NCBI GenBank assembly: GCA_963969495.1
Contig: OZ018329.1
Span: 69,714,959-69,778,958, forward strand
Direction: 5' to 3'
Length of the DNA stretch: 64,000 nt
Origin: Ceratothoa steindachneri
Lineage: Eukaryota; Arthropoda; Malacostraca; Isopoda; Cymothoidae
The notes under the pieces: model-generated
Database searches by the model: none
Seen by the model: only the letters and a program-made list of their open reading frames with translations
Told to the model about the DNA's origin: nothing
Position numbers and translations under genes: made by a program
Shown: positions 34,147 through 63,418 of the stretch, in pieces
How positions within the stretch are numbered: position 1 is the stretch's first letter
Layout of the letters: every line of letters starts with the position of its first letter

Positions 34147-34744
34147 ATGGTGTAAGAGCATATGTAGGTGAGGGGATAGAGAAAGGGTGTGTGGACAGAC
34201 AGCGGAAAGTAGTCCAATGGTGAAAAGAGAAAGAAGTGTGGAAGGGTGCAAAGTGAGGATAGAGCCTGGTGATCAGGTCTATCGCTTTAAATTTTGTTTT
34301 GTTTTTTTGTTCCATTGTTGTCTTTCATTTTGTTTATATATATATAAATATATATATATATATATATATATATATATATATATATATATATATATATATA
34401 TATATATATATATATATATATATATATATTTATATATATATATATATAATATGGCGTTCAAGCCATTTGTCTTCAAATGGCTTGAACGCCATATTATGAT
34501 TTGCGCATTTGCTGTTGTGTTGGTAATTGCATTAATAATTACTTTTAATGTTTGCTTAGTGTCTTTTTTTTCGTATATTTTGCAATGTGTGTAGTTTGTG
34601 TATTGTGTTTCTTCGTGGATGTCTTCTTCGGTAAATTTCAGTCTTTATCGGTAGATTTTAGTCTTCATCCATGAGTTTTGTCCCAATCAGCGAGGTTTCA
34701 CAGTTAGGTTAGCTTTATCTTGGTTTGGGGGAAAAATGTCTCTA
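34147..34744 (-). other. 3' UTR and tail of A1, with perfect palindrome
   Basis: Tail with hairpin CCTG-GTGAT-CAGG, a (TA)n tract (34337-34449), and a perfect 24-bp inverted repeat with a 4-bp spacer (34446-34497). The inverted repeat duplicates the 3' motif in both orientations. The remainder is T-rich 3' UTR. Confidence 0.75.
34337..34445. repeat. (TA)n microsatellite
   Basis: About 110 bp of TA repeats in the A1 3' UTR. A2 and A3 have only short TTATTA/TAATTA sequence at the same place, so this is an expansion specific to A1. Confidence 0.95.
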
Positions 34745-37424
34745 TCATCGTGCGTAGAACGGCAATTCTGCTCTGCCAGCTAAAACCCCGGCGGAGCTTG
34801 GAAATCTGGCGCGACTTATTGCTCTTCTATTCTGGTCAATCATTTGGACGATTTCATCCTCCAATTCACGGTTGACGTTTTCCAGCATATTCATTGTCCG
34901 TTCTTCTATGACAACGTTAATGGGACTTAACCCCGCCTCCCGGTGCAGCTCTTCTTGTCTTCTTCTTTCTATTCTGCGCGTACCTGTAATTAGATACGCG
35001 CATTTATTCTGCACCACCTGTAGTCTCCTCTTATGTGTCTTTGAGACACACGAGATGGCGGAAGCTGGGTATAGCAACATTGATCTTACCAGTGCAGTGT
35101 AGATCTTTTTCTTGTTGCTTTGGCGAAGATTTCTGAACCTAAATAGAGTCTTGACTGCAGGAGTGGCCTTGGTGATTCGTTCTTGGATGTCCTTCTTTTA
35201 ACGGATGAGGTAATCTTCATTCCGAGTACATTGCACTCCGTGGTGTAGGGATATCGTAGATCCCCCACTCTGACGTCATAAAGTAGTCTCCTGCCTATGG
35301 GGACTACTTTGAACTTTTCATGGCTATACGGATTTTCCACCGGGCCTCGTAGGTGTTAAGATTTTAGATTTTTGCTGCTGTCATTCGCGTTTGATAAGGC
35401 GCATTACTCCATGGACGAGTGATTATCTGGGTGAAATCATTGGCGAATCGAATGTTTCAGGCAAGTGGAGCCTACAGGAGCCGGGACATCCACGGTGTAA
35501 CTTAAGTAGAGAGTCAGGGACAGGCACCCCCTCCCCATCCTAAATTGATGTACGCCGCTCTCTCCATGACATTTTAACAGAGAGTTCTTTATAAGTTTTC
35601 ACTTAGGCCCAGTCGTAAGATCTTGTACTGCATTCCCCGCTGCCACACCATATCAAACGCCTTTGATACATCCCGACAAACAATTTCCACGTAACTCTTT
35701 TCCCGTTTTGCTTGGGCTAGCTTTTCCGTGATGATGTTAATCACCATCTCCGTAGTTCTCTTTCTCCTAAACCCTAATTGGTTTGGGTTATAGAATGAGT
35801 TTTCCTCCAGGTGATACACCACTCTTTTGTTGAGGATCTTCTCGAAAAGCTTCCCGCCAAATTCCAGAAGTGAAATTGGCCAATAGCTCTCCTTCAACGT
35901 TGGGTTCTTTTCGTGCTTAGGCAAGAAGATCATCTTAGCCGTTTTATAAGTATACGGATAGTATCCCGTGTTCAGACAGGCGTTATATATTCTTCTTATT
36001 CCTTCGATGACATTGGCTGGCGCCTTTTCAAAGTTAGGCTTTGTTAGCCCCAATTGTCCTGGGGCTTTTTGTTGGAATGAGCGGAGCGTGCCGAGTAGTT
36101 CGGCTTCTGTAATCTCGGCGTCTCCGTCGCGCTGTCTATCCACCTGGTGGTTAGGGTGCGTCTTGTGTAATTGTTCGTTAAGCTCGTCGATGATGTTGCT
36201 TTTGAACTCCAGGTCATAGTCTTCGTTCTCCTCTTCAGTTATACTGAAGATCTTTTCCCAATAACTTCGGAATATTTCTTCAACTTTTTCCTCTTCTGTT
36301 TTGATGTTTCCGTCATCTTTTTGTAGCTCGATCTTATGCTTCTTCTTCCTAGTCGATCCTTTGAGATTTCGGATCTTTTTCCAAAATTCTTTGGGAGTCG
36401 TTTCGTGATCGAGGCTATCGATCGTGTCCTCCCATCTTCTATTCTGCTGTTCGAGGATCAACTGGTTCAATTCTTCTTTGATTTCTTTACTTCTCTGCAT
36501 CGAGTGAACCGATGACTTCACGATGTTGAGTTCATACATTAACTTCAGTTCACGATTTAATTCCTTTATATATTAGGTCCACTCGTAAGTAGAGATGGTC
36601 CTATATTCGGATTTAGGGATACAAGCCCTATCTGCGTCGAGGAGATGGTTATGGAGGTCATTGAGTGCCTCGTCCAAGTTGGGCGGATCGTAGGCCTCGA
36701 GAAGGTGCGCGTACCGTGTCCAGTCTGCTCTTTTGTAGTTCTTCATGACTACAGCTGGAACTTATATAGTGTTCCTGTTGATAGTGAGTAGGATCCCTAT
36801 ATGGCCACTACATGGTACCTGGACTGATTCCATGTAGTAATTGAATTGCAGCTGACGATTCCCTAGAAAGATGTCTGGCTTTGTGGCACCTCGTGCTCTA
36901 ACATAGGTGGGGAAGTCGGGGCCTATTTGCTGGGCAATATTTCTGTCCAGCAACAGGTCCAGGCTTCTATCTATACCGTTGTAGGTCCAGTAACCGGATT
37001 CTCAGCATCTGGAATTCAGATCCCCCATTAATATACTGGGGGCTCCTCTGCCAAATAGGCCAGTGAGAGTGTGAATTGGTAACACATCTCTCCTTGGCGG
37101 TTGATATCCGGTAGCAATGACCAACTTTCCTAAGTCGAATTCGACCTCAATCGCGAGGTAGGGTTCTTCTAGGTTCCGTATCTGCTTATATTTAATCCCT
37201 TTCTTTATTGCAATAGCGGCTCCATCGTACCGCTCCTGCGAATAATTTGTGATCAACATATCGTAGTTCCAGATCTTCATTTCTGTTCTACGCGTGTCGA
37301 TCCCGTGTTCTTAAATCAGTATGATGTCTGCATCAATTTCTCTGAATACATTTCCGGAAAGAATTATTTTCTTCGTGCAGCCGTTGGTGTTTATTTCCAT
37401 TATCTTCAGTGTGTTCCGTAACAT
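34745..37424 (-). pseudogene. LINE ORF2 (endonuclease plus RT), A1, broken
   Basis: Start ATG at 37422-37424, 16 bp past the ORF1 stop. Endonuclease: 'MEINTNGC', 'SQERYDGAAIAIKKG', 'ATGYQPPRRDVLPIH', 'SILMGDLNSRC' (Asp and Asn kept) and 'GATKPDIFL'. 'CSGHIGILLTI' shows the catalytic SDH changed to SGH. The RT piece at 35589-36539 is open for 316 codons with 'AKMIFLPKHEKNPTLKESYWPISLL' in part and 'DVSKAFDMVW', ending at a stop (Glu to TAA) before the YADD, which reads FANDFTQI in broken frame. The C-terminal 111 codons are open. Confidence 0.8.
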
Positions 37425-62578: not shown

Positions 62579-63418
62579 CGTCGCCGACGTCTTCTCTCTT
62601 CACTCTTCTTTCTTGATTTATTTTTTATGTGTGAAAATGATATGTGAAAATTTTGTATATGAAAAAAGTGATTTGTGAAAAAGGAGGTAAAGTTAAGGGT
62701 TGGTTTTGAAACGACGCGAGAGAAAGTGCTCCCGTCCGGTTTCCTGTTGTTTCCTCGCTCGGATGGTGCCGGGATGAGGGGGGATGATGGATGGGGGATA
62801 GTTCTCGAGTGGGGACCTCAGAGGGTTGAGCTTGGTGGACTTAATGCATAGCGGCCGAATCAACGACCGCTAAGTTTGTGCCACCCCCTCACGGGTACGT
62901 ACGCCAAAACTGCATCCAACTACATAGAGACGGGTGTAACTCCCTCTATGATTCTGGCCGGGTCCCCCGGGCGATGAGGATTTCTCCTCCGTCCGGGACT
63001 CGCAGTTTTGCCCCAAATTCGAGAGAATTTCTGACTTGTGCTTCTGCTGTGGGATAGGCCTCAAACCAGTTTCCACGCAAGCCCTTAATTATGCCAGACC
63101 AAGTGGCCGACATAGTTAAGACGAAATTAATGAAGGGCAGTCATCCGAGCAGGTTCACACGCAGGTCGTTGGACGGGAGCAACGAGAGTATTTAGCCCAT
63201 CATTTTTCCTCTACTTCGCAGCGAAAAAGATATATGAAATCTTTTGCAGTTCGACTGGGCTCCTAAAGACACCCAGGACAGAGTCGCGTTCTTAGATGGC
63301 GAAGGCTCAAAAGTCTCTCTTTCTATATGCACGCGTGAATAACAACGCTCTTCAGGAGGTAGTAAGGCAGTGCTACAGTGTACGAAAAATTCGCCCAGCT
63401 TTTTCTCCATCCACCGAC
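62579..63418 (-). other. 5' UTR of A3
   Basis: About 840 bp. Hairpin TAGCGG...GAATCAAC...CCGCTA at 62849-62872; GC-rich paired segments (GAGACGGGTGTAACTCCCTC, GGGTCCCCCGGGCGATGAGG); ends TTTTCTCCATCCACCGAC. The 68-codon open frame at 62870-63076 starts with GTG and is not called. Confidence 0.7.

Follow-up and report, generated by a model that had tools for sequence, protein, structure and literature searches.

The stretch analysed here (the window, 64,000 nucleotides) corresponds to positions 69714959-69778958 of contig OZ018329.1 (C13) of the isopod Ceratothoa steindachneri; C13 is 172 Mb long, and the genome 3.93 Gb. Contigs are given by short labels (C2, C3, C6, C12-C14, C16) and sampled loci by L numbers. 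Between positions 34147 and 63404 the window contains six long interspersed nuclear elements (LINEs) on the minus strand, arranged head to tail in the order A1, D1, A2, D2, B1, and A3, and neighboring elements are separated only by 12-14 bp copies of one sequence, GTCGRTGGATGGAG. A previous description made from the letters alone (the sequence-only reading) had listed these six elements with their order and sizes and had seen no host spacer between them, and all of this was confirmed. Its three families, on the other hand, become at least five lineages: A2 and A3 are 88% identical, A1 and A3 about 72%, and D1 and D2 can be aligned, with the settings used, over 445 bp only, at 68.5%. We take the elements to be putatively jockey-like.

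The joints share one layout, in which the 3' tail of a LINE, (AAAGTC)n in the case of A3, stands directly before the joint sequence and the 5' start of the next LINE directly after it. At every joint of the array the sequence is GTCG[A/G]TGGATGGAG or a decayed copy. The two copies that flank A3 are identical to each other, and the joint sequence is read as a target site duplication (TSD) that was duplicated afresh by each insertion. Eight matches with three or fewer mismatches occur in the window, where chance predicts 3.2, and five of the seven TSD copies are among them; the copies at the B1/D2 and D2/A2 joints have four mismatches and keep TGGATGGAG. The match at each of the seven joints is better than in random 36-nt windows (P from 0.0007 to 0.023). 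The earlier statement that random insertion does not explain the array is upheld. To the left of A1 (23900-34146), same-strand LINE pieces also abut one another, a 5'-truncated D0 followed by E and then F; at the D0/E and E/F joints the TSD match is not beyond chance in the same comparison (0.12 and 0.78). The leftmost TSD copy lies in D0 and may be the sequence that was first targeted; D0 may instead be a member with a truncated 5' end, attached there by microhomology. The target was also considered to be the NVDGW codons in the open reading frame 2 (ORF2) of another LINE, an idea that was dropped since other A copies have other TSDs.

As a proxy for age, we used the best relative elsewhere in the genome of one 601-bp piece per element. 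Identity to this relative increases from left to right (A1 93, D1 93, A2 96, D2 99, B1 100, and A3 99%), from which we infer that age decreases from the left, 3' side to the right, 5' side and that newcomers were added serially at the 5' TSD. The stepwise, long-term growth proposed earlier is borne out by the same series. In an array of two A copies at C16:81.9 Mb, which agrees with this direction, the upstream A is closer to eight young copies than the downstream A (97.8 versus 95.6% in the 5' part and 96.2 versus 91.6% in the 3' part, with pieces of unequal length). The two A copies at C16:126.67 Mb show a small difference, 95.7 versus 94.8%, and their similar divergence would suit a concerted origin, in which several RNAs are copied in a single insertion by template jumping; such jumping by the R2 polymerase is described in PMC2718515. 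Jumping alone would not place a TSD between elements, yet all joints of the window array carry one, and the best-match divergence spans from about 7% to less than 1%. A concerted origin is thus very unlikely.

The sequence-only reading had also considered addition to a chromosome end, of the kind known for HeT-A, TART, and TAHRE, with the free end on the right. HeT-A is gag-only, and the B element here likewise has ORF1 only, with a TATA box in its 3' end. The head-to-tail order, the single orientation, the mixed families, and the promoter-like box in a 3' end (here of B) all resemble the telomeric arrays. For HeT-A, a 3' promoter and head-to-tail telomere arrays are described in PMC5537684. 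The youngest elements do stand on the right, but the array is chromosome-interior, at 69.7 Mb of the 172-Mb contig, it is flanked by TSDs on both sides, and its families are dispersed over many contigs, the best 40 A matches being spread over 18 of them. Telomere-type addition was rejected for this array on its interior position and its TSDs and, unless the contig is misassembled, we find it barely credible.

For a wider view of the target sites, the best 40 A matches, less A3 of the window, gave a sample of 39 A copies, 19 with 9 kb of context and 20 as 451-bp end pieces; the 5' flank was readable in 28 and the 3' flank in all 39. Strings of 10-14 bp are shared by both sides in 27 of the 28 other A copies with both ends readable (a few tail letters may be included), and these TSDs have their own sequences, none of them that of the window. 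With 45 occurrences of its A form in 3.93 Gb, the window 14-mer is no common target in this genome. A nick motif was sought at the A copies and none was found, the columns around both nicks holding at most about 0.4 bit each. These data bear on site-specific LINEs of the R1 type, whose endonuclease would recognize a fixed sequence, here GTCGATGGATGGAG. One sequence at all joints is what such elements would produce, and R1 is reported to form arrays in this way: according to PMC2718515, tandem R1 copies in Drosophila 28S ribosomal DNA are separated by the TSD, and insertion into the 5' TSD of the resident element is inferred there. The present array is like them in the TSD between copies and in the newer elements at the 5' TSD, in the window and in agreement at C16:81.9 Mb. 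Unlike R1, which mainly uses one 28S sequence, the LINEs here have differing targets without a shared motif, stack several families, and have promoter spacing in common. Fixed-sequence targeting, the other system named in the sequence-only reading, was rejected on the 14-mer count and the differing TSDs, and it is highly improbable. A sequence-blind endonuclease would hardly hit the same two phosphates twice, and therefore something else must mark the site.

Arrays of this type recur in the genome. In 9 of the 39 A copies, another LINE begins with its 5' end right after the 3' tail and TSD, as determined by alignment for L016, L038, L042, L046, L048, L049, and L050 (the last from about 150 nt inwards) and by a shared 5' motif for L010 and L011. 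A LINE 3' end lies directly or at most 25 nt before A in six (L020, L032, L038, L041, L044, and L049), so that 13 of the 39 abut a LINE on either side, as do 6 of 20 further B copies on one or both sides (L085, L087, L088, L092, L093, and L097). The 5' ends after L010, L011, L093, and L097 and at C3:88.56 Mb were recognized by motif and eye, and the tails before L032 and L038 and before B in L088 by eye, all without alignment. The condition named earlier as a refutation, that most copies are inserted singly, largely holds: with a limited library, no LINE end was recognized within 25 nt of 26 of the 39 A copies. The remainder, however, take part in further head-to-tail joints. A genome-wide search for exact joint patterns, which had been suggested earlier, found an A tail followed by an A or D start twice and a D tail followed by an A start four times; the backward controls gave 0. 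In eight other arrays, that is, wherever the far end was readable, the same TSD is re-used at the joints, and more than one family is present in seven of the eight (Table 1).

The region C2:62.148-62.183 Mb (L088, L049, and L089) is a cluster in which B copies, four or more of them, occur in both orientations; a stack of five elements (Y, B, truncated X2, A, B) stands there on the TSD AAAATTATAA. Another B-A joint with a similar spacer is found at C2:62182332. D-A joints at C6:136753870 and C6:137260072 carry the same TSD on opposite strands and probably belong to an inverted segmental duplication.

Table 1. Features of the window and arrays elsewhere in the genome (positions without a contig label are window positions)
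Feature	Position	Strand	Remarks
Second CCAAT box (CCAATCAG)	63522..63529	-	111 nt before TSD
CCAAT box (CCAATCAG)	63485..63492	-	74 nt before TSD
TATA-like box GATAAAAA	63433..63440	-	22 nt before TSD; TATA matrix score 8.0
TSD 1, 5' of A3 (GTCGGTGGATGGAG)	63405..63418	-	predicted start-site position of promoter
LINE A3	58053..63404	-	best relatives elsewhere 99%
A3 ORF1	61331-62578	-	415 aa
A3 ORF2	58644-61319	-	891 aa; endonuclease and reverse transcriptase (RT)
TSD copy, A3/B1 joint	58039..58052	-	identical to TSD 1
B1, short LINE, ORF1 only	55441..58038	-	best relatives elsewhere 100%
B1 ORF1	56286-57839	-	517 aa; B1 without endonuclease or RT
TATAAAA near B1 3' end	55470..55476	-	36 nt before TSD copy of B1/D2 joint
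TSD copy, B1/D2 joint (TCGCGTGGATGGAG)	55427..55440	-	
LINE D2, interrupted frames	50192..55426	-	best relatives elsewhere 99%
TSD copy, D2/A2 joint (AATGATGGATGGAG)	50178..50191	-	
LINE A2, decayed	44838..50177	-	best relative elsewhere 96%
TSD copy, A2/D1 joint (ATCGATGGATGGAG)	44824..44837	-	
LINE D1, decayed	39426..44823	-	best relatives elsewhere 93%
TSD copy, D1/A1 joint (GTCGATGGATGGAG)	39412..39425	-	
LINE A1, decayed	34147..39411	-	best relatives elsewhere 93%
TSD copy, left edge of A1 (GTCGATGGATGAAA)	34133..34146	-	overlaps NVDGW-type codons of D0 ORF2
Array AGGTCCCAT-D-same-A-same	C14:60.88 Mb		
Array A-CACACATAGCC-B-same	C12 (133.3 Mb)		
Array A-AGTTCCCTATTTTG-D-same	C14:61.63 Mb		outer 5' end not found
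Array A-TCTGACTATT-A'-TCTGAATATT-LINE-type 5' end	C3:88.56 Mb		one TSD mismatch
Array X2-(ATTATCAG plus GAAAAAC)-A-AAAATTATCAG-A-same-LINE 5' end	C16:81.9 Mb		
Array A-TAGGTAAAAT-A-same	C16:126.67 Mb		outer 5' end not found
Array with four joints	C2:62.16 Mb		each joint with AAAATTATAA
Array A-AAAAAAGATAG-B-same	L092		

The insertion sites of A, B, and D appear to share the geometry of a promoter rather than a sequence. A TATA-like box and two CCAAT boxes precede A3 in the window, and a TATAAAA box near the 3' end of B1 precedes the next joint; at L041, an A copy lies in the 3' end of another B, with its TSD 23 nt after the same TATAAAA box. The discovery set was built from 48 A and B sites, of which 8 without a TSD of at least 8 bp were left out; with the D site of L030 and the window site added, this gave 42. 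Ten with a LINE upstream were removed, leaving 32 sites, one of which (B_L086) has a doubtful TSD. Counted from the TSD, strict TATA boxes number three in total at -200..-31, eight at -30..-21, and four at -20..-11, and 9 of the 32 sites have one at -30..-17. Among the 22 sites with at least 300 nt of flank, 4 have a strict TATA box at -30..-17, compared with 0.44 on average and 2 at most in control windows of the same flanks. CCAAT or ATTGG is present at -80..-61 in 10 of the 32 sites, compared with 0-5 in the other 20-nt bins. TATA-like boxes occur in the sense orientation at 11 sites and in antisense at 3, and in any other tested window, upstream or downstream, at no more than 3 of 30 or 32.

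Two tests were set beforehand: one looked for strict TATA and CCAAT boxes at new D and B sites, the other for TATA boxes before A copies with an exact start across the genome, with a threshold of more than 3-fold. The genome-wide test was passed. TATAWA at 24-39 bp before an A start gave 63 raw matches at 55 distinct starts, whereas the control distance of 74-89 bp gave 15 raw matches and 7 distinct starts, two of which are TA microsatellites; backward patterns of TATA and A start numbered 0. The TATA box lies 31-37 bp upstream in 50 of the 55 starts and, with two likely segmental duplicates merged, 32-37 bp upstream in 47 of 53. Four of the 55 starts (L011, L018, L041, and L045) had already been sampled. 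With a TATA matrix applied post hoc, boxes were found at 21 of 47 sites overall versus 7.0, and 300 shuffles gave at most 14.

Several results weigh against a promoter as the common feature and against serial growth at its start. The strict test failed on the new D and B sites: of 39 regions, 23 had a readable start, and removal of 7 with a LINE tail upstream or an unclear start left 16, of which 1 had TATA (control 0.52) and 1 had CCAAT (0.8). With one near-duplicate removed, the post hoc matrix gave 5 of 15 new sites versus 2.2 (p 0.06), and CCAAT was found in 0 of these 15. In the discovery set, 10 of the 32 sites have neither a TATA-like box (score of at least 5) nor CCAAT/ATTGG at -100..-55. 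The sites are not all independent, as a flank repeat is common to the window, L026, L048, L093, and L102 and, more weakly, to L030, L090, and L103. The fraction of A starts bearing TATA is taken from the small sample. Some joints are imperfect: L010 has no TSD, L016 has no matching 5' TSD, and the joint at L044 is 25 nt apart. The 3' end of B was not found in L074, which pairs with L049, nor that of A' in L029, which pairs with L016, and at C14:61.63 and C16:126.67 the outer 5' ends could not be located. At L020 a young A stands downstream of a D that is also open, so that either may be the newer element.

Some target spots are used more than once. A dispersed repeat that carries several CCAAT boxes directly precedes LINE insertions at window positions 63419-63800 and at loci L026, L048, L093, L102, and L009, and it looks like the multicopy promoter of another element. 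The TSD AAAATTATAAG is shared by L016 and L049, and L071 and L157 carry it with one change. TATATACTGGACCATATTGTCAAAATTATAAG stands before an A start at C13:22.4 Mb and has close relatives on C6 and C8; as a multicopy promoter, it may explain the recurrent TSD. Two B copies, L089 and L155, lie at slightly different spots of one repeat flank (TATACACAAAATG), and the TSD of L089 is the conserved LINE 5' block GATAAAGGA. No tRNA gene was detected by ARAGORN in the window or in 12 scanned loci. A tRNA-derived short interspersed nuclear element (SINE)-like repeat, recognized by eye, adjoins 3 of the 39 A copies; at L012, L042, and L043, three A copies and one B lie at nearly one spot of it, and ATTGG occurs 59-61 nt before the TSD in L042 and L043.

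Taken together, we consider it probable that these jockey-like LINEs inserted serially at one site, most likely the start of the RNA polymerase II (Pol II) promoter that they are predicted to target. What picks the insertion site is most likely the Pol II core promoter, and either the TATA-bound machinery or the open start-site bubble would bring the ribonucleoprotein there. By the general layout of Pol II promoters, a TATA box that precedes the LINE by about 35 bp and the TSD by about 23 bp would put the expected start within the TSD. The TSD would then cover roughly -8 to +4 of the start, approximately the size and place of the melted bubble. The endonuclease would nick both edges, and target-primed reverse transcription would insert the LINE in the sense of the promoter, leaving the CCAAT box, the TATA box, and the start site intact upstream. 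Because the promoter and start site stay upstream, the next LINE, of any family, would land on the same spot and push the older ones downstream, and each new LINE would have the benefit of being transcribed from the captured promoter. Such a promoter mark would account for the single orientation, the single TSD, the mixed families, growth on the upstream side, and the absence of a motif at the nick.

A different explanation is that the endonuclease or another element protein reads a DNA feature itself, such as a TATA-like box about 35 bp upstream or a stretch that bends easily, and does so without the promoter machinery; the TSD would be re-used since the feature stays upstream. TATA spacing alone would yield the genome-wide counts at A starts, and the hot spot in the tRNA-derived SINE-like repeat, with insertions at nearly one homologous spot, also suits this explanation, as does the joint word AAAGTCACACATAGCC, which occurs four times, two of these being loci of that repeat. 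However, CCAAT is also enriched at promoter spacing (the new D and B sites did not repeat this), many sites lack TATA, as TATA-less promoters would, and the nick itself is low in sequence information, at most about 0.4 bit per column. We regard direct reading of a DNA feature as unlikely and favor guidance by the Pol II promoter.

The reading frames of the array LINEs gave Pfam matches to endonuclease and RT and no match to RNase H, and three ORF1-type frames matched no Pfam family above the cut-off. CCHC zinc knuckles were seen by eye in ORF1. An ORF1 with such knuckles and an ORF2 that pairs an APE-type endonuclease with RT but has no RNase H agree with the make-up of jockey-like LINEs. A PDB sequence search gave L1, R2, and a few more distant proteins as relatives of the RT. 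A3 and B1 had been described as open and the others as decayed. The frames of A3 are open, yet 63 bp are missing, in frame, near the end of ORF2; all 19 other A copies with full context show an alignment break at the same place, and the missing residues are present in A2. D2 does not fit the description, as its frames are broken but it is young, 99% identical to copies elsewhere. B is probably a family with ORF1 only rather than a single broken copy, because a second B, on C12, likewise measures about 2.6 kb between its start (L042) and its 3' end (L073), with no room for ORF2. Young B copies of about 2.6 kb are near-identical on many contigs. Window positions 5600-23000 hold nested fragments of the same LINE group in both orientations, some interrupting others.

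Guidance by transcription machinery has a parallel in TRE5-A of Dictyostelium, an APE-type LINE whose ORF1 protein contacts TBP, Brf1, and Bdp1 and which targets RNA polymerase III (Pol III)-transcribed tRNA genes, 40-54 bp upstream and in the opposite orientation, as given in PMC5911963. In the present case, by contrast, the predicted targets are Pol II promoters, insertion is at the start site and in the sense orientation, and no tRNA genes adjoin in the scanned loci. Ty3 and Tf1 are long terminal repeat elements that use an integrase, and the promoters chosen by Tf1 are Pol II promoters. We know of no head-to-tail stacking by TSD re-use in either. They are like the LINEs described here in inserting at or near promoters, Ty3 at Pol III start sites (PMC5911963) and Tf1 at promoter regions (PMC4600332).

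In the literature surveyed, consisting of titles and the beginnings of abstracts with few subscription papers, neither LINEs that target Pol II start sites nor TSD-sharing LINE arrays without a fixed site were described. We lean, with some reserve, toward the view that these are the first LINEs known at Pol II start sites, in which the TSD would be the melted bubble, the promoter would be captured, repeated hits would build a dated, mixed-family stack with the newest element nearest the promoter, and the box in the B 3' end would be a new landing site. To our knowledge, animal LINEs are seen as either nearly random in their insertion or bound to one repeated sequence. If the proposal is true, LINE targeting would have a third mode, guided by the geometry of Pol II core promoters. 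This mode would explain how these elements retain a promoter that they do not encode, how a niche can be shared by several families, and why arrays stand away from telomeres. Each array would be a time-ordered record of insertions at one promoter, and if the guiding contact, be it TBP, TFIID, or the open bubble, were found, it would offer a route to promoter-addressed insertion by target-primed reverse transcription.

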